Source: Acidobacteriota bacterium (GTDB lineage Bacteria > Acidobacteriota > Blastocatellia > Chloracidobacteriales > JADJPF01). From it: a DNA stretch of 64,000 nucleotides. The stretch covers positions 62,001 through 126,000 of the forward strand of contig JACQZQ010000092.1 of assembly GCA_016213785.1 (NCBI GenBank), written 5' to 3'. Of this stretch, positions 2,297 through 41,835 are shown piece after piece. The notes below the pieces were generated by a model. It searched no databases. It worked only from the letters and a program-made list of their open reading frames with translations, and was not told where the DNA came from. Each line of letters begins with the position of its first letter. The first letter of the stretch is position 1. Both the position numbers and the translations under genes were made by a program.

Positions 2297-3955
2297 TTAG
2301 AGTGAGTTATTAGGTAAAATAAATGTTCCTAGATGCGGGCCACTATTATTAAGCGTGGTTCGCAAAGCCAATGACAGACATTCACGGGTATTTTCAGGCA
2401 TAATTACAGCATCTACAAAACCGCGTGCTGCTGCATATTTAGCATCAAGCTGATGATTATAGTCTGCTCTAACACTATCCATTGCAGCTTTTAGCTCATC
2501 ATCAGGCTGTTTTCCTTCAGCTTTTAGTTTATCTAGTTGAGCACTAAATAGAGCCATCACAGCTGATTCGCCTTCCATTACACCCATTCGCCCTGTAGGC
2601 CAAGAGAAAATAAAGTCAGGATCAAAGCCTTGACCAGCCATTGCATAATAACCAGCCCCAGAAGCATGATTTATTGTTAAGACTATCTTAGGTACTGTTG
2701 CTGTAGCCATTGCTTCAACAAACCTTGCTCCAGCACGAATAATTCCTGATTGTTCAGCCTCTACACCAACCATAAACCCAGAAACATCTTGGATAAAAAG
2801 TAGTGGTGTTCCTTGACGATTACAAGTTTCAATAAAATAAGCTACTTTTTCAGCACTATCAGCATAAATAATCCCACCAAACTTAGGTGGTTTTCCTTTT
2901 GTGCCTTTAATTAAGTTACGCTGATTTACAATTATTCCTACAGGAATACCACAGATACGAGCATGCCCCGTAATAATTTCTTTAGCAAAATCAGCCTGAA
3001 ATTCATTTAAGTATCCTTCGTCAAGTATACAATCAAGTAATGATCTCATATCATAAGGATGACGATGATCATTAGGTAAAATATCATAAATATCTATTTC
3101 AGGGCGTTTAGGAGGTTTTGCTACTTCGATTGCAGCACGAAATGGAGTAGGGGGAGGAAGATCTTTAATAAGTTCTCTTAAGCGTAAAATACAGGTTTGA
3201 TCATCAGGGACTTTGTAATGAGCTACTCCGCTAATTTCATTATGCATACTTGCCCCACCCAGAGTTTCGCTATCAACCGTTTGGCCTGTTGCTCCTTTAA
3301 CTAAATTTGGCCCACCAAGCCCCATAAAACTTTTTTCTTCTACCATAATTATGCTATCACTAAGTGCTGGTAAATAAGCGCCTCCAGCAACACATTGACC
3401 CATTACGGCAGAAAGTTGAGGAATTTTTAAGTAACGGCGCATTACAGAATTATAGAAAAATATCCTTGACCCACCATATTGACCAGGAAATACCCCACCT
3501 TGATAAGGAAGATTAACACCAGCAGAGTCTACTAAGTAGATTATTGGTACGCGAGAGCGCATAGCTATTTCCTGAGCGCGTAAAATTTTCTTTATAGTCT
3601 CAGGCCACCAAGAACCAGCTTTTACTGTTGCATCATTAGCAACTACAACCGCTTCGCGACCACATACTTTACCTATACCTATTATTGTTCCTACACCAGG
3701 AGCTTGACCTTCATATTGATCATAAGCAATCAATAGCCCTAGTTCTTGAAAATAACTTTCGGGATCAAAAAGTTTAGCTATACGTTCTCTTGCTGTTAAC
3801 TTTCCTTGTTTTTGATGTTTCTTTATTTTATCTAGCCCACCACCTAGTTTAAGTTGTTCTTCTAGTTCTTTTAGTTCTTTAGCTAACTTTCTCATATTAG
3901 ATAACATAGGGGTTTTTTCAGTCTGTTGTTGTGTCACAGTAAAAGGTGCCTCCAC
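2297..3955 (-). CDS. Acyl-CoA carboxylase carboxyltransferase (beta) subunit
   Basis: A biotin-dependent carboxyltransferase of the crotonase-like fold, 552 residues, which is the usual length for propionyl-CoA or methylcrotonyl-CoA carboxylase beta subunits. The N-terminal half has KLTARERIAKLFDPESYFQE and the oxyanion-hole region GQCVAGGAYLPALSD. The C-terminal half has PLLFIQDVSGFMVGVEAEQ and the ATVPKIVLTINHASGAGYYAM segment that binds carboxybiotin. The pattern looks closest to methylcrotonyl-CoA carboxylases, but substrate cannot be fixed by eye. No biotin carboxylase or biotin carrier gene is adjacent, so the partner subunit is elsewhere. The upstream gap is the GATC-rich array described separately. 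Confidence 0.88.
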   Translation of the reverse strand: MEAPFTVTQQQTEKTPMLSNMRKLAKELKELEEQLKLGGGLDKIKKHQKQGKLTARERIAKLFDPESYFQELGLLIAYDQYEGQAPGVGTIIGIGKVCGREAVVVANDATVKAGSWWPETIKKILRAQEIAMRSRVPIIYLVDSAGVNLPYQGGVFPGQYGGSRIFFYNSVMRRYLKIPQLSAVMGQCVAGGAYLPALSDSIIMVEEKSFMGLGGPNLVKGATGQTVDSETLGGASMHNEISGVAHYKVPDDQTCILRLRELIKDLPPPTPFRAAIEVAKPPKRPEIDIYDILPNDHRHPYDMRSLLDCILDEGYLNEFQADFAKEIITGHARICGIPVGIIVNQRNLIKGTKGKPPKFGGIIYADSAEKVAYFIETCNRQGTPLLFIQDVSGFMVGVEAEQSGIIRAGARFVEAMATATVPKIVLTINHASGAGYYAMAGQGFDPDFIFSWPTGRMGVMEGESAVMALFSAQLDKLKAEGKQPDDELKAAMDSVRADYNHQLDAKYAAARGFVDAVIMPENTRECLSLALRTTLNNSGPHLGTFILPNNSL

Positions 3956-3993: not shown

Positions 3994-4110
3994 GATCAAA
4001 TTATTTTGATCAAGCTGATCATTTGATCTAGATCAAGTGATCAACCTGATCGCGATCAGATCATTTTGTGATCTAGATCAACGATCAACTTGATCTAGAT
4101 CAGGTTGATC
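3994..4110. repeat. GATC-word array, noncoding (15 GATC in 117 bp)
   Basis: GATC begins at 3994, 4008, 4017, 4025, 4031, 4039, 4048, 4054, 4059, 4070, 4076, 4083, 4092, 4098 and 4107. Many copies form nested palindromes such as GATCTAGATC and CTGATCGCGATCAG. The array fills the gap between the rluB stop and the carboxyltransferase start, so it lies upstream of the latter. In random sequence of this composition one would expect fewer than one GATC here. The same words recur in the array at 24774-25041. Confidence 0.9.
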
Positions 4111-4114
4111 AAAA

Positions 4115-5833
4115 TTAGTCTTGAGTGTTTTTAGTAAATTTTCTAGAAAAATTAGATCCTTTTGAGCTTTTGTTTTGACCTGAAGCAGTGTTTTTTCTAA
4201 AACTGCCTTTTCTAGCAAAATTACTTTTTGGCTTAAAGTCATCTTTTTCCTTAAAACTATCTTTAGCCCTAAAGTCGCTTTTTGGCTTAAAATCGCTTTT
4301 TGGCTTAAAACTTTCAGTTTCGTTCAAATCATCTTTAGACTTAAAGCCATCTCTAGACTTGAAATTGTCTCTGGACTTAAAGCCGTCTCTAGGCTTAAAA
4401 CTATCTCTGGATCTAAAGTTATCTCTAGACTTAAAACCGCTTTTTGGTTTGAAATCGTCTTTAGACTTAAAGTCTTCAGTTTGGTTAAGGGTATCTTTAG
4501 ATTCAAAAGCTTCTTTAGGTTTTCTAGCCTCAAAATTGTCTCTAGACTTGAAATTGTCTCTGGATTTAAAGCCATCTCTAGGCTTAGAACTATTTCTGGA
4601 TCTAAAGTTATCTCTAGGCTTAAAACCGCTTTTTGGTTTGAAATCGTCTTTAGACTTAAAGTCTTCAGTTTGGTTAAGGGTATCTCTGGATTCAAAAGCT
4701 TCTTTAGGTTTTCTAGGCTCAAAATTGTCTCTAGGCTCAAAATTGTCTCTAGACTTAAAGCCGTCTCTAGGTTTGAAGTCATCTCTGGGTTTTAAGCGAG
4801 GTTTGGCTTTGAAGTCGTCTCTAGTCCTAAAACCGCCAGAACTCTTAAGGTCGTCTTTAGGTTTTAAGCGAGATTTGGACTTAAACTCATCTCTAGACTT
4901 AAAGCCGTCTTTAAACTTAGAATCGTCTTTTTCATTAAAATCAGGTTTTTCGCTAAGAGGGTCTTTTTTTCTAAAATTATTAGTTTTACGAAAACGATCT
5001 TTTTGTCCAAAACTTCTTTTAGGCTCAGTAGACTTACTTTGTTTTTTAGGGGTTGAGTGTGTTTCTTCTGAATCGTTTAGGAGTGTTTTTAAGGAAGATT
5101 TTTTATTAACTTTTCTAAAAAAGCGATCTACTTCGTTTTGTGAAAGATAACGAAATTTTCCTATTGGCAAATGCTCATCAGTAATATGACCAATGCGAGT
5201 GCGCCTTAATTTAACTACTGAATGACCAATTGAGTCAAACATTTTTCTAATTTGATTATTACGTCCTTCATAGAGAAGGATTTCAAACCAGCTATTACCA
5301 GCGTCACTTACTTCAAGTTTTCGTAAATTTACAGGAGCAGTTTTTCTATCTTCAATTACTATACCGGCTCTTAGCCTATCTATAGCATAGCTAGTTGGTT
5401 CGCCTTTAACTTTTGCTTCATAAACTTTAGGTACATGCTCAGAGGCACTAGTAACAATTTTAGTTAAATCACCATCATTGGTTAAAATCAATAGTCCTTC
5501 AGTATTAAAATCAAGTCTACCAACAGGATATACTCTAGGAGTACCTACAGGGAGCAAACTAGTTACTAAGGGGCGATTTTCTGGGTCAGAAAGGCTGGAA
5601 AGATAGCCTTTTGGTTTGTTAAGTAAGATATAGACTTTTTGGAAATTTTCTATCTTAGGGTTAATTAGTTTACCGTTGACCTTTATATGATCAACCTCTG
5701 GATCAGCTTTAGTTCCTAATTGAGATATGACTTCTCCATTAACTGTAACTTGGCCTAGAAGAATTAATTCTTCAGCTTTACGTCTAGAAGCTATTCCGAT
5801 ATTTGCGATAATTTTTTGTAGTCTTTCTTGCAT
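4115..5833 (-). CDS. RluB/RsuA-type pseudouridine synthase with long repetitive basic tail
   Basis: Makes pseudouridine in rRNA. Residues 1-60 form an S4 RNA-binding domain (RLQKIIANIGIASRRKAEEL). Residues about 65-230 form the synthase domain, with the catalytic aspartate in GRLD (Asp108) and RNNQIRKMFDSIGH near residue 190. Family members usually end near residue 240-290. Here about 320 more residues follow, built from FKxRDxFKxKD-type units rich in Lys, Arg, Asp and Phe, with a 63-residue block present twice (189-bp period at DNA level). The tail is probably disordered and may bind RNA. The gene sits upstream of the carboxyltransferase gene and downstream of scpB, a common neighbour of rluB. 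The large plus-strand frame across the tail is a shadow of the repeats. Confidence 0.9.
   Translation of the reverse strand: MQERLQKIIANIGIASRRKAEELILLGQVTVNGEVISQLGTKADPEVDHIKVNGKLINPKIENFQKVYILLNKPKGYLSSLSDPENRPLVTSLLPVGTPRVYPVGRLDFNTEGLLILTNDGDLTKIVTSASEHVPKVYEAKVKGEPTSYAIDRLRAGIVIEDRKTAPVNLRKLEVSDAGNSWFEILLYEGRNNQIRKMFDSIGHSVVKLRRTRIGHITDEHLPIGKFRYLSQNEVDRFFRKVNKKSSLKTLLNDSEETHSTPKKQSKSTEPKRSFGQKDRFRKTNNFRKKDPLSEKPDFNEKDDSKFKDGFKSRDEFKSKSRLKPKDDLKSSGGFRTRDDFKAKPRLKPRDDFKPRDGFKSRDNFEPRDNFEPRKPKEAFESRDTLNQTEDFKSKDDFKPKSGFKPRDNFRSRNSSKPRDGFKSRDNFKSRDNFEARKPKEAFESKDTLNQTEDFKSKDDFKPKSGFKSRDNFRSRDSFKPRDGFKSRDNFKSRDGFKSKDDLNETESFKPKSDFKPKSDFRAKDSFKEKDDFKPKSNFARKGSFRKNTASGQNKSSKGSNFSRKFTKNTQD
4340..4740. 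repeat. 189-bp tandem duplication inside the rluB tail
   Basis: The stretch containing TTGGTTAAGG recurs with a 189-bp offset (4481 and 4670), and the flanking codons match with few changes. In protein this is a 63-residue block (from PRKPKEAFES through the FKSRDNF units) present twice. The offset is a whole number of codons, so the frame is kept. Smaller units of the form 'FK-S/P-RD' make up each block. Boundaries are approximate. Confidence 0.75.
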
Positions 5834-23351: not shown

Positions 23352-23530
23352 AGTTTGGGCAGACCTAACAGCCATTCATTATCTATAGTTTGGGCAAACC
23401 TATATACCCTTTATCTTAAGCAGTTTGGGCAAACCTATATACCCTTTATCTTAAGCAGTTTGGGCAGACCTATATGCCCTTTATTTTAAACAGTTCGGGC
23501 AGACCTATGTGTCTGCCCTTTATTTTAAAC
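23352..23530. repeat. 35-bp tandem repeat, five copies
   Basis: Copies start at 23352, 23387, 23422, 23457 and 23492; four are exactly 35 bp and the last is 39 bp. Each begins AGTTTGGGCARACCTA (the last has AGTTCGGG). The last copy runs over the stop codon and final codons of the deaminase gene. There are no spacers, so this is not CRISPR. The last copy contains the hairpin described next, and the shorter copies look like decayed versions of it. Confidence 0.9.
23497..23518 (-). terminator. Hairpin after the deaminase gene, member of a dispersed family
   Basis: GGGCAGAC (23497-23504) pairs perfectly with GTCTGCCC (23511-23518) over a 6-nt loop. It starts one base after the stop codon of the deaminase gene and could end its transcript, although no T run follows. 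On the minus strand its core reads GACACATAGGTC, matching the GACACAAAGGTC cores of two hairpins at 54645-54709. Confidence 0.6.
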
Positions 23531-25067
23531 TTTCTAAAATTTGCTCACGATATTTTTTAATTTTTTGGTTAATTTCAGCTTCATTTAATGTTAAAACTTT
23601 CCCATTTTGCATAACTATTTTGCCATTAATTATAGTAGTTTCTACATCACTTCCTTTTGTAGTGTAAGCTAATGATGAGTATAGATTATAGAGCGGTTGA
23701 TGATGGGTTTTTTCTAAATTTACTAAAATTAAATCTGCTCGTTTTCCTACTTCAAGAGAGCCAATTTCTTTTTCTAAATGAATTGCTTTTGCTCCACCAA
23801 TAGTTGCCATTTCAAGTGCTTCTTTAGCACTAATTACAGTAGGGTTTTTTGAATTAAGCTTATGTAGTTTTGCAGCTGTATCAATTTCTTCAAATAAATT
23901 TAAGTCATTATTTGAAGCCGCCCCATCTGTGCCAAGACCTACTGCAACACCAGCCTTAAGCATTTCAGGTACAGGTGCAACACCACAAGCAAGTTTCATA
24001 TTACTTTGAGGGCTATGTGCAACTCCTACACCACGTTTTTTAAGTAACTCAATCTCTTCAGCATTTGCCCAAACCACATGAGCTGCAATTAAGCGATTAC
24101 TTAAAAGCCCTAGTTTTTCTAAATGCATAATTGGACGAGCACCATAACGTTTTTCTATATCATCTACCTCGGCTTGTGTTTCTGATAAATGAATGACTAT
24201 AGGGACATTTTGCTTTTCTGCAAACTCCTTAACTGCAATTAAATGATCTGGTTTAACCGTATAAGGAGCATGTGGGGCTATAGCTGGTATAATTAAAGGG
24301 CTATTTCGCCAACGCTCCACAAATTTTTGTGTATAAACTAATGTTTCTTGAGGTGTTTTATTATCTGCAACTGGAAAATCTATTAGTGTTTCTCCTAGGA
24401 CTCCTCTCATTCCTGCTTTACTGGTTGCTTCGGCTATTGCATCTTCAAAATAATACATATCTACATAAGTAGTTATCCCAGACTTAATCATTTCTAAACA
24501 CCCTGCCATTGTTCCCCAATAACAGAAATCTCTAGATACGTTTTTAGCCTCAGCAGGGAAAATATATTTTTCTAGCCACTCCTGCAAAACTAAATCATCA
24601 GCAATCCCTCTAAATAAAACCATAGGAACATGAGTATGTGTGTTAATTAACCCAGGGATAATTGCTCTACCTTTAGCTAAAATTTTTTTCTTGGGTAAGT
24701 ATTTTTTTGATAATTCTACTCTTGAACCAATATCAACAATTCGCTCACCTTTAATTGCAAGATAACCATCTTGGATCACTTCTTTTTGATCATTCATTGT
24801 TAAGATCACACCACCAACAATCGCAATATCAATAGATCGACTTGATCGCTGATCTTTTTGATCTAAAGTTTGATCTTTTTGATTTGATTTTTGATCTAAA
24901 GCTGATCGAACTGATCTAGATCGCGATCTAGAGCTTGATCGCAAGGAAATTTCTTTGATCTTACTTTTTTGATCAGATTGGGCTAAAAGATCAACATTTG
25001 AGATCAATATGATCATTAAAATTGTAGTTAAAAAAAAGATCACTCTTTGTAAGTAAGACTTACCCAT
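23520..25067 (-). CDS. Exported MtaD-like amidohydrolase (methylthioadenosine/SAH deaminase family)
   Basis: A metal-dependent deaminase of the TRZ/ATZ group. Zinc and catalytic motifs are complete: GLINTHTHVPMVLFRG, PHAPYTVKPD, HLSETQAEVDD, HVVWANAEEI and GTDGAASNNDLNLFEEID. These match 5'-methylthioadenosine/S-adenosylhomocysteine deaminases. Unusually, the first 30 residues form a signal peptide (VIFFLTTILMIILISNVDLLA), followed by about 50 low-complexity residues (SSSRSRSRSVRS, DQKDQ units) encoded by a GATC-rich array, before the enzyme starts near residue 78 (IDIAIVGGVILTMND). The enzyme is thus predicted to be exported. An internal start would give a cytosolic form, but no in-frame ATG is seen between the signal peptide and the enzyme core. 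Substrate is by homology only. Confidence 0.88.
   Translation of the reverse strand: MGKSYLQRVIFFLTTILMIILISNVDLLAQSDQKSKIKEISLRSSSRSRSRSVRSALDQKSNQKDQTLDQKDQRSSRSIDIAIVGGVILTMNDQKEVIQDGYLAIKGERIVDIGSRVELSKKYLPKKKILAKGRAIIPGLINTHTHVPMVLFRGIADDLVLQEWLEKYIFPAEAKNVSRDFCYWGTMAGCLEMIKSGITTYVDMYYFEDAIAEATSKAGMRGVLGETLIDFPVADNKTPQETLVYTQKFVERWRNSPLIIPAIAPHAPYTVKPDHLIAVKEFAEKQNVPIVIHLSETQAEVDDIEKRYGARPIMHLEKLGLLSNRLIAAHVVWANAEEIELLKKRGVGVAHSPQSNMKLACGVAPVPEMLKAGVAVGLGTDGAASNNDLNLFEEIDTAAKLHKLNSKNPTVISAKEALEMATIGGAKAIHLEKEIGSLEVGKRADLILVNLEKTHHQPLYNLYSSLAYTTKGSDVETTIINGKIVMQNGKVLTLNEAEINQKIKKYREQILESLK
24774..25041. repeat. GATC-word array inside a coding region (20 GATC in 268 bp)
   Basis: GATC begins at 24774, 24788, 24804, 24835, 24844, 24851, 24860, 24872, 24893, 24904, 24913, 24919, 24925, 24937, 24957, 24971, 24989, 25002, 25011 and 25038. 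The densest part carries GATCTAGATC and GATCGCGATC, the same words as the array at 3994-4110. It covers the signal peptide, the linker and the start of the enzyme domain of the deaminase gene and keeps the reading frame. Confidence 0.9.
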
Positions 25068-26247: not shown

Positions 26248-28749
<2,502 letters not shown>

Positions 28750-33487: not shown

Positions 33488-34339
33488 TTATTTATTTGCT
33501 ATAAATAATTCATATAAGCGATCAAGCTCACTTTCTGAATCAAAACTAAATTGGATACGCCCACCTTTTTTATCATTTAGGTGAATTTTTACTTGTGTTC
33601 CAAAACGTTTTTCTAATTTTTTTTCAGCATCTTTAATATTAGGGTCTTTTTTTACAACAACATCAGTTTTTTTAGCCGGTTCACAAATTTGTTGAACAAG
33701 CTTTTCTACCTCTCTAACTGAAAGGGAATCATCTATTATCCTCTGGGCTAAACGTATTTGTTCATTAAATTTCTGCTCTAGTTTTAGTAAAGCTCTAGCA
33801 TGTCCCATAGAAATTTTTTCTGTTTCTACTAATTCTTGGATCTCTTCAGGTAGTTTAAGCAGTCGTATAATATTAGCTATAGAGGATCGCTCTTTTCCTA
33901 CACGACGGGCAACTTGTTCTTGAGTAAGTTTATGAAAATTAGTAAGTTTTTGATAAGCTAAGGCTTCTTCTATAGGGTTTAATTCTTGACGTGCTATATT
34001 TTCTACTAAGGCTAATTCTAGTAGCTTATCATCAGGAATATCTTTTACTACAGCAGGAATTTTTAATAGTTTAGCTTTTTGTGCTGCTCGCCAACGTCTT
34101 TCCCCTGCAATGATTTGAAAACGATCACCTTTGCGTCTAACTAAAATAGGTTGAACTATACCATTTTCTTCAATCGATTCTGCAAGCTCTTTAAGTCTTT
34201 GTTCATCAAAACGGGTTCGAGGTTGCTCTTCATTGACATCTAAAAGATCTAAGTCTATTTCTAATAATTCTTCATTAGAAGAGCTATTAATTGGAGGCAA
34301 GAGCGCAGAAAGTCCTTTACCTAACGCCTTTTTGGTCAT
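33488..34339 (-). CDS. parB: Chromosome partitioning protein ParB
   Basis: CTP-dependent clamp that loads at parS and spreads on DNA. Motifs: [10 protein letters not shown] at the start, [12 protein letters not shown], the CTP/phosphate motif [28 protein letters not shown], and the helix-turn-helix [23 protein letters not shown]. It overlaps the parA stop by 23 nt. Two parS sites lie upstream of parA (35211-35226, 35262-35277). Confidence 0.96.
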
Positions 34340-35090
34340 GGCTAATTACCTCCTTGGCAAGTTTTAAGTAACTATCTGCTCCTTTTGATTTTACATCATA
34401 AAGAATTATAGGTTTGCCATGACTTGGGGCTTCGGCAAGTTTCACATTTCTTGGAATCATTGTCTTAAAAACTTGGCCTCCTAAAAAGTCTCGTAAATCT
34501 GAAGTTACTTGAGATGCTAGTTTTGTACGTTCATCATACATTGTAAGCAAAAATCCCTCTACTGCTAGGTTAGGGTTAAGACTTCGACGAACTCTAATAA
34601 GGGTCTCCCAAATAGCAGAAACCCCTTCTAGGGCAAAATATTCACACTGAACAGGAATTAAAACCGAATCCGCTGCTGCTAAAGCATTTAAGGTAAGTAG
34701 CCCTAAAGATGGAGGACAATCTATTAGTATATAATCATATTTTTCTCTTAGTGGTTCTAAAATGGATTTAAGTTTTAATTCTCGGTCACTTAATTCTACT
34801 AATTCAACTTCTGCTCCTGCTAAATTGCGATCTGCTGGTGCTAGAGCTAATTTTTCTATTTCTGTTTTAATTAAAATATTTTCTACAGGCTCATTCATAA
34901 CTAGGACATGGTAGAAACTTCGTCGTAAATTCTTGGACGTTCCTAGCCCAGAGGTTGAATTAGCTTGAGGATCAATATCTACTAACAGCGTGTTTTTATT
35001 TCCTTTTGCTAACCCAGCAGATAAATTTATTGCCGTAGTAGTTTTGCCTACCCCGCCTTTCTGATTTGCAATAGCAATTATTTTTCCCAT
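34317..35090 (-). CDS. parA: Chromosome partitioning ATPase ParA (Soj)
   Basis: Walker-type ATPase that moves ParB-parS complexes. Motifs: deviant Walker [17 protein letters not shown] near residue 10, [16 protein letters not shown], and Walker [21 protein letters not shown]. The frame extends to a TTG at 35105, but the ATG at 35090 ([13 protein letters not shown]) is preceded by GAAGG and is the family-typical start. It is co-transcribed with parB. Confidence 0.96.
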
Positions 35091-35200
35091 AAACCCTTCT
35101 TTCAAATCTCTTAAAGAAGATAAGCGCTATATTTCTACCATTAATATTTTTAGCATAATATTTTGAAAAGATAACATAGGCGAATTAGTAGATAAAGTTT

Positions 35201-35236
35201 AACTAGCAAATGTTTCACGTGAAACATTTGCTAGTT
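35201..35236. promoter_or_regulatory. parS site within a 36-bp perfect palindrome
   Basis: The core TGTTTCACGTGAAACA (35211-35226) is the universal parS sequence. The flanks AACTAGCAAA and TTTGCTAGTT extend the dyad to 36 bp without a mismatch. It lies between rsmG and parA, both minus strand. The extended palindrome could also fold as a transcript hairpin ending the rsmG transcript. Confidence 0.95.
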
Positions 35237-35261: not shown

Positions 35262-35277
35262 TGTTTCACGTGGAACA
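35262..35277. promoter_or_regulatory. Second parS site
   Basis: TGTTTCACGTGGAACA differs from the consensus parS by one base. It overlaps the stop codon of rsmG (35266-35268), and lies 35 bp from the edge of the first site. Confidence 0.92.
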
Positions 35278-39637: not shown

Positions 39638-40587
39638 CTAGTTAGTAGGATTGTTTGCTTCTTCCCAAAGTTTTGGAAAATACTCTTCAACCCTTCTTAA
39701 TACTCCATGTTTTGTTCCTATAGGGAGTGGTTCAAGGTGGAAAATTTCTGATGACCAATAAGCTTCTTTAGCTAAAGGGTAATATTTTAATTGTCCTCCA
39801 GAACCATAGTACCATTCGATTACTGTTTCGTCAGAAGCATCTTTAGCTACCAAACATTTTCTGTGTTCTGGAGAGGCATTAGCGTTTCCTTGTAATTTTA
39901 TAGGAATAGACCAATTAAGAGTTTTGGCAGAAGGAAAACTTAAAGCAAATTGGTATAGTTTATAAGTTGCTGTAGAGTTATATAGTAATATCAGATATGA
40001 ACTTTTGCTTACATCTATTAAACCGTTATTGCTTATATCAACAGACTTATGCCTGTTCTCAACCGTTTCAATAAGTGTTTCTCCCATTGTAAGAGCTTGT
40101 TTTGGTTCTTTAAAGTTAGCTTCATTTATCCCTTTAGCTCTTAATCTATCCCAAAATAAAATCCTCCTGCGGCATTAGAAACTTCAATATTTACTCTTCC
40201 ATTAGGTTTTAAAGCCTTATTTAATTCTGCTCTAGACTTACACGACAGCCCAAAGTAGTGTTTGTCGTTTAATTGTAATACTACATCAAATATAAATTTA
40301 CTTTCAAAAGTAACACCATTAAAGGCAAGGGCAACTGCTCGTTCAAAATCTCGCCACCCTGGTAAAGTATTTATGATACTTTCTTTAAGCGAGTATTTTG
40401 TTTGTTCTTTTATGGAAAATAAAGACTCTTGTTGGTTGGTATGTCTTTTTTGAGAAATAGCAGTAAATAACCTAGAGTGTTCATCTGTAGATAGCATGCC
40501 AATACCATCTTGGTAAACACTAAGAATTAAACGTAATTTTTCAAGCTCTTTATGTGTTATTGGAGTCTCTCCAAGAATCAGACTCAT
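39638..40587 (-). pseudogene. Type II restriction endonuclease-like gene, broken by a one-base frameshift
   Basis: Two consecutive frames look like one protein of about 316 residues. The 5' part (40587-40141, 148 residues) has GWRDFERAVALAFNG and FDVVLQLNDKHYFGLSCKSR, with Asp101 and Lys117 in a PD-(D/E)xK-like layout where Ser115 takes the usual acidic place. It ends abruptly after EVSNAAGGFYFGID. In the other frame FWDRLRAKGIN continues without a stop into the 3' part (from the ATG at 40087 to 39638). Adding one base in the AAAA run at 40153-40156 joins them. The 5' frame overlaps the HTH gene by 4 nt. This may be decay, strain-level phase variation, ribosomal slippage on the T run, or a sequencing error. 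The family is inferred from neighbours and motif; recognition sequence is unknown. Confidence 0.6.
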
Positions 40588-40917: not shown

Positions 40918-41835
40918 GTGCCATCACCAAAAAAAACTTTCCAACAAAACATGCTAAATAGCCCTTTTAAATGGGTTGGCGGTAAATCACGATTAAGAAA
41001 ATATATTATACCTCTAATAACGCCACACTCTTGTTTTGTTGATCTTTTTGCAGGAGCAGGTTGGATACTTTTTGGTAAACCCCCTAGTAAAATAGAAATC
41101 CTTAATGACAAAGACGAAGATTTAATAACATTTTTTCGTGTTGTAAAAGAAAAACCTAATGAGCTTATAGCTTCATTTAATTGGGAGTTAGTTTCCCGTG
41201 CTGAGTTTGAGCGTTTTGCGTCTTTAAATGTTTCTGAACTCACTGATATACAACGTGCACACAGATTTTATTATTTGATTATGGCTGGTTGGGGAGGTGA
41301 ATTAGCATACCCTCGCTTCCAAACAAGCATTAATGATGGGGGGCATGGCAATCGTTTATTTGGTGCTATAAAAAATTTGCATTCTCGCCTAGAACCAATT
41401 CACAAAAGATTAAGTACTGTAATAATCGAAAATTTAACATGGCAGGAATGCTTTAAGCAATATGATAGCTCCAGTAGTTTTTTCTATATTGACCCACCTT
41501 ATCCAGGAAATAAATGTAATTACGTTCATAATATGAAAAGTTGGTCAGAACATTATGAATTATATGATGCCTTAAAATCTTCAAAATCACGTTGGATAAT
41601 ATCTTCATATGATATACCAGAAATGTACCAAATATTTAGTGAATCTAAATATCACATTATTCCAGTATCGTCTTATTCTGGTATGAATACAGATAAAAAT
41701 GCTGTGAGTAGAGTACAAAATAAAGAAATTTTGCTATTAAATTTTGTCCCAACAAATTTATCTTATGAAATAAACATCGCCTCTGAAGGATTTGCCTTAG
41801 AAGAAAAGTTAAATCAAGACTTGCTCCCTTTTTAA
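40918..41835 (+). CDS. Dam-family (D12 class) N6-adenine DNA methyltransferase
   Basis: 305 residues. SAM-binding motif I in alpha-class order: FKWVGGKSRLRKYI near residues 17-30, then DLFAGAGWILF (Asp42), and catalytic motif IV DPPYPG (Asp192). These are typical of Dam, DpnM and related enzymes that methylate adenine. It starts at GTG 40918, with AAGGAG 6 nt upstream; an internal ATG at 40948 is possible. It is divergent from the regulator/endonuclease pair, forming a type II restriction-modification locus. The target sequence cannot be read by eye; GATC is one possibility, of interest because of the GATC arrays in this window. Confidence 0.9.
   Translation: MPSPKKTFQQNMLNSPFKWVGGKSRLRKYIIPLITPHSCFVDLFAGAGWILFGKPPSKIEILNDKDEDLITFFRVVKEKPNELIASFNWELVSRAEFERFASLNVSELTDIQRAHRFYYLIMAGWGGELAYPRFQTSINDGGHGNRLFGAIKNLHSRLEPIHKRLSTVIIENLTWQECFKQYDSSSSFFYIDPPYPGNKCNYVHNMKSWSEHYELYDALKSSKSRWIISSYDIPEMYQIFSESKYHIIPVSSYSGMNTDKNAVSRVQNKEILLLNFVPTNLSYEINIASEGFALEEKLNQDLLPF

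Follow-up and report, generated by a model that had tools for sequence, protein, structure and literature searches.

GATC arrays in the window

The window is the whole stretch of DNA that was analysed, 64,000 bp from contig C75 (C75:62001-126000) of G000, the genome under study. G000 is a draft assembly of 6.4 Mb in 132 contigs, which are referred to here by C-numbers. In a search with gyrB its named relatives were Pyrinomonadaceae and further Acidobacteriota, and G000 is probably a member of the Blastocatellia. The genomes used for comparison include G001, from the same genus, and G002 and G003, from other genera.

Array 1 contains 15 copies of GATC in 117 bp, with spacings of 5 to 14 bp (Table 1). 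It is noncoding: the carboxyltransferase ORF begins at 3955 and the rluB-type ORF ends at 4115, both on the minus strand, and the array occupies the space between them. The count had been given in a preliminary description of this DNA and is confirmed here, with the array filling the gap between the two genes. The background frequency of GATC is about 1.9 per kb in 348 kb of control sequence. In 761 kb of sequence simulated with Markov models of order 1 to order 3, the maximum was 5 GATC per 117 bp, against the 15 of array 1. GATC also has the most extreme local clustering of all of the tetramers tested on four contigs. The long tail of the RluB-type protein encoded next to the array consists of near-repeats (KSRDxFKxKDDFK), and these give the opposite strand long antisense ORFs and clusters of CTAG words.

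Table 1. Arrays, neighbouring genes and origin-proximal features in the window
Feature	Position in window	Position on C75	Strand	Remarks
GATC array 1	3994..4110	65994-66110	.	15 GATC; in noncoding DNA, with the dnaA-dnaN gap 10.3 kb away
Acyl-CoA carboxyltransferase (methylmalonyl-CoA decarboxylase alpha-type)	2297..3955		-	Host neighbour; array 1 is upstream of its start
RluB/RsuA-type pseudouridine synthase, repetitive tail	4115..5833		-	Host neighbour; array 1 is just past its stop codon
GATC array 2	24774..25041		.	20 GATC in 268 bp; in the region coding for the amidohydrolase signal peptide/low-complexity linker
Amidohydrolase (TRZ/ATZ family)	23520..25067		-	Host of array 2
gyrB	26248..28740		-	Origin-proximal set, followed by recF, parAB, rsmG, mnmG, mnmE, yidC, rnpA
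Chromosomal ParB	33488..34339		-	
Chromosomal ParA	34317..35105		-	
Canonical parS TGTTTCACGTGAAACA	35211..35226	97211-97226	.	Exact
parS copy	35262-35277	97262-97277		One mismatch

Array 2 was not mentioned in the preliminary description, though it is within the same window. The gene set that starts with gyrB, the canonical parS and the dnaA-dnaN pair are all on C75, which identifies this as the chromosomal origin region. Between the end of dnaA (C75:55462) and the start of dnaN (55772) is a gap of 309 bp (C75:55463-55771), which contains a cluster of DnaA boxes and 7 GATC. The oriC is outside the window, 6.2 kb beyond its left end. Relative to oriC, the arrays on C75 are at -14 kb, within valS and beside parS-like sites, at +10.3 kb (array 1), and at +31 kb, in the amidohydrolase gene near gyrB (array 2). 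The canonical parS 16-mer does not occur within the arrays and stands separately on C75. The idea that the arrays are the canonical ParB/parS centromere was therefore rejected, parS being present but distinct from them.

Arrays at replication and partition loci

Genome-wide statements are based on pattern scans and on about 1.1 Mb of sequence read directly. A scan for further arrays, as had been proposed in the preliminary description, identified about ten in the 6.4 Mb, against no cluster of at least 4 GATC in the 348 kb control sequence. The pattern TGATC-TGATC-GATC has 64 matches in the genome, all of them on the five contigs C75, C31, C91, C117, and C92. On C31, arrays are found within a RepO-like gene and before the parA that is its partner, and also after a parB and in the interval from parA to a gene for a RepA/RPA-type initiator. 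The C91 array is inside another RepO-like gene and that on C117 adjoins a third, both with parA adjacent. The C92 array, which precedes a gene for a HARE-HTH protein, is the sole array away from the origin or rep/par loci.

The initiators found were either PF10134 or PF04492-like; among the RepO-like genes, only those on C117 and G001:C30 passed the cut-off of PF04492 (Phage_rep_O). The C91-type RepO-like protein has no relative in the plasmid collection, and that of C117 has none in the phage collection. The parAB loci of C34 and C105 have no array in the stretches read. This indicates that the arrays are tied to origins and Rep genes, not to parAB as such.

The RepA locus on C31 also has separate, GATC-free TTAACAGTTG iterons next to its array, so the GATC array is not the sole repeat there. 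About a dozen of these TTAACAGTTG-type repeats are found in the interval from parA to the gene for the RepA/RPA-type initiator (G000:C31:133830-134640; G001:C551:2930-3640). They are conserved between the two species and are probably iterons of a secondary replicon in Acidobacteriota. A 7 bp tandem repeat, TGATCCC, is present on contigs C110, C273, C275, C649, and C656 of G012, a different member of the order, and is probably unrelated to the GATC arrays of G000.

Beyond GATC itself, the arrays share weak T/A flanks and an avoidance of a preceding G. Only 2% of the array GATC are preceded by G or followed by C, compared to 19% in the background. Spacing across the arrays varies from 4 to 35 bp; the mode is 9 bp, and most spacings are between 6 and 12 bp. 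These spacings, with GATC as the only shared sequence, fit a reader of the tetramer itself.

The chief rival to a Dam-dependent marking of origins is that the arrays are methylation-independent binding arrays, iteron- or centromere-like, for Rep or ParA-partner proteins, with the chromosomal copies serving as titration or checkpoint sites similar to crtS. This is unlikely, but it would account for arrays being located in or adjoining RepO-like genes that have a parA partner, and for the presence of both an array and parS-like sites in valS. The origin of phage lambda is inside gene O and has four iterons of one sequence. The arrays are comparable in being repeats inside a RepO-like initiator gene, and differ in having only GATC in common between repeats and parA adjacent. 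No longer consensus or fixed spacing is common to the arrays, yet the Rep proteins are about 21-30% identical outside of ortholog pairs. The lack of a shared motif beyond GATC across such divergent initiators weakens the case for Rep or Par binding. The separate TTAACAGTTG iterons beside the array at the RepA locus also count against it, as does the C92 array, with neither a Rep nor a Par gene within about 3.5 kb of it.

The preliminary description saw in array 1 a possible methylation switch at the carboxyltransferase locus. Array 1 is directly upstream of the start codon of this gene, as would be expected of a local epigenetic switch of the kind seen in Pap-type phase variation. However, array 1 is one member of a set found across the genome and linked to oriC and to plasmid-type replication and partition loci; the other arrays are at origins or in coding sequence, including valS and the amidohydrolase gene, and the array 1 gap has no promoter-like site. 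A switch specific to the carboxyltransferase was set aside because the other arrays are located elsewhere, and is now very unlikely.

Conservation and selection for GATC

Orthologous arrays of G001 are located in valS, where about 450 bp contain 37 GATC, to either side of parAB/RepA, and within the RepO-like gene of the C91 type. Each of five further Rep-like genes in G001 also has an array. In alignments of G000 and G001, some of the arrays keep their GATC among altered spacers and others turn over sites at a retained density. The region orthologous to array 1 is missing from the assembly of G001, the sole genome of the same genus. The comparison of this gap between relatives, suggested in the preliminary description, showed that the array is absent from the rluB/carboxyltransferase junction of G002 and G003. 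No arrays were found in the stretches read of G003, a member of the family that has Dam and GATC enrichment near dnaA.

The origin itself is GATC-rich across the family. The dnaA-dnaN gap of G001 has 11 GATC in 350 bp, and in the other two members of the family the 400 bp preceding dnaA contain 6-7. Outside of the family, the counts in relatives are 0-4 downstream of dnaA and 0-2 upstream.

For the arrays in coding sequence, the expected number of GATC was obtained by sampling synonymous codons, given the encoded amino acids and the codon usage of the genome. Observed numbers exceed those expected in valS (24 versus 7.6), in the amidohydrolase gene (20 versus 7.1), in valS of G001 (37 versus 11.5), and in the RepO-like gene of C129 (14 versus 0.7). 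The excess is weaker in three RepO-like arrays (P about 0.02). The reading frame of the GATC differs among the genes, and all three frames are used in valS and the amidohydrolase gene. The protein sequence is therefore not the cause of the excess; GATC itself is selected for.

It is highly improbable that the arrays are the result of neutral tandem growth, or a side effect of restriction avoidance or of DNA uptake. Near-regular units of 8-10 bp in some arrays are as slippage would give, and the length of the valS array varies between the species. Neutral growth does not explain the recurrent tie to origins and rep genes, the retention of arrays at orthologous places, or the GATC excess in all frames. 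A role for array 1 as a folded RNA or DNA structure, for example a terminator or a cruciform, is scarcely credible: its fold is strong against dinucleotide shuffles (z = -8), but z is about -3 when GATC is kept and the spacers are shuffled, several arrays show no excess, the array 1 gap has no terminator-like site, and all Rfam matches are far below threshold. An RNA hairpin or terminator was rejected, as the fold is largely due to GATC content and is not common to all of the arrays.

Dam methylase, SeqA and MutH

The preliminary description linked the GATC sites to Dam methylation, SeqA-like sequestration, and MutH. A Dam-type, SeqA-like use of GATC is the likeliest class of explanation, given a Dam-family methylase in the genome, arrays at origins, and selection for GATC, but SeqA and MutH themselves are both absent. 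The Dam-family methylase is encoded on C96 and scores 309 bits against TIGR00571 (dam; cut-off 114.85). Its closest solved relatives in the PDB are DpnM and E. coli Dam, and by this homology it is predicted to be specific for GATC. It is an orphan, with flanking ORFs unlike an endonuclease, and similar genes are present in other members of the family.

A second, divergent adenine methylase gene of the D12 class (40918-41835) is present in the origin region between mnmE and a kinase gene, with two small unassigned ORFs (40141-40587 and 39638-40087). Together these look like a restriction-modification island. The D12 methylase was considered as the Dam and rejected. Since it scores below the Dam cut-off, the C96 gene is taken to be Dam.

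Neither SeqA (PF03925) nor MutH (PF02976) had a match in 6 genomes, the E. coli controls being positive. In their absence, a different reader would be required.

A possible mark at replication origins

It is held here, with moderate confidence, that the arrays are a Dam-dependent and SeqA-independent marking of replication origins and partition loci, which delays or times initiation. The GATC of the arrays would be targets of Dam methylation. After passage of the replication fork, a cooperative reader other than SeqA may bind the dense block of hemimethylated GATC. Such binding would delay re-initiation, or set the time of initiation and segregation, for both the chromosome and the plasmid-type replicons, which is what SeqA does at oriC of E. 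coli and at the V. cholerae origins. The arrays at -14, +10, and +31 kb would enlarge the bound domain at the GATC-rich oriC or make it stronger. The distance of 31 kb between the amidohydrolase array and oriC was counted against a sequestration reading. Studies cited in PMC4786541 have it that synthetic GATC clusters in E. coli increase SeqA binding at nearby sites, which fits arrays that are placed around, and not only in, oriC.

The E. coli oriC/Dam/SeqA system and the GATC enrichment of genes next to oriC in Dam-positive gammaproteobacteria (PMC4786541) share with the present case a Dam-family methylase, a GATC-rich oriC, and enrichment that continues into neighbouring coding genes. Unlike the E. 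coli system, the arrays described here occur without SeqA or MutH and in the phylum Acidobacteriota. The gammaproteobacterial enrichment is diffuse, whereas these are compact arrays of 9-37 GATC that are also found at plasmid-type rep/par loci. In V. cholerae, the RctB 11-/12-mers of ori2 contain GATC, and Dam-dependent delay or timing of initiation is known at the origins of this species (PMC2865523, PMC6090056). There too the origin of a plasmid-type initiator is dense in GATC and both the chromosome and a secondary replicon are marked. However, the arrays have no regular 11-/12-mer with 10-11 bp spacing, the RepA locus of C31 has its separate GATC-free iterons, and the initiators are RepO-like or of the RPA type. 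The P1 oriR has GATC repeats beside its iterons, and so resembles the RepA locus in having a GATC-rich block adjoining iterons at a plasmid-type origin. The arrays are longer than those of P1, irregular, and also located in coding genes and around oriC.

Replication control by Dam and SeqA has been described for a clade of the gammaproteobacteria. As SeqA was looked for and not found, the array system resembles the Dam/SeqA system without being a member of it. If the proposed marking is correct, methylation-timed control of origins has evolved on at least one further occasion, and with another reader. It would also mean that one common mark couples the chromosome with several plasmid-type replicons, those of C31, C91, and C117 being putative in a draft assembly. 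Searches of the literature did not turn up any earlier account of GATC arrays at origins in Acidobacteriota.

A candidate reader

The gene downstream of the C92 array encodes a HARE-HTH protein of 214 aa, in which the C-terminal half is strongly conserved. The gap before this gene is GATC-rich in G001 as well, but not in G003. The protein is present in all four of the family genomes and in none of nine from the sister family. The distribution of GATC enrichment at dnaA among genomes is similar, a co-occurrence that is based on one clade. Adenine methylation can be sensed by winged-helix domains, that of DpnI being an example (PMC11037411). The array upstream of its own gene in both species of the genus, the presence in the family but not in the nine sister-family genomes, and this property of winged-helix domains make the HARE-HTH protein the best, albeit speculative, candidate for a reader of the arrays. 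A fold search with a model of the protein gave no significant match, the best being the winged helix of RNA polymerase delta (E 0.14), and the C-terminal half of the model had no match among solved folds.

A more specific form of the proposed marking is put forward tentatively, as possible but less likely than not. Acidobacteriota may have independently evolved an origin sequestration system, with Dam-methylated arrays at oriC and plasmid-type rep/par loci and with the HARE-HTH protein replacing SeqA as the reader and regulating itself through its upstream array. The set of array sites is compact, conserved in the genus, and easily testable, and a candidate for its reader has been named. A gene for another protein, of 479 aa and with two HARE-HTH domains, is found at G000:C91:178377-179246 and is also present in G001 and G002.
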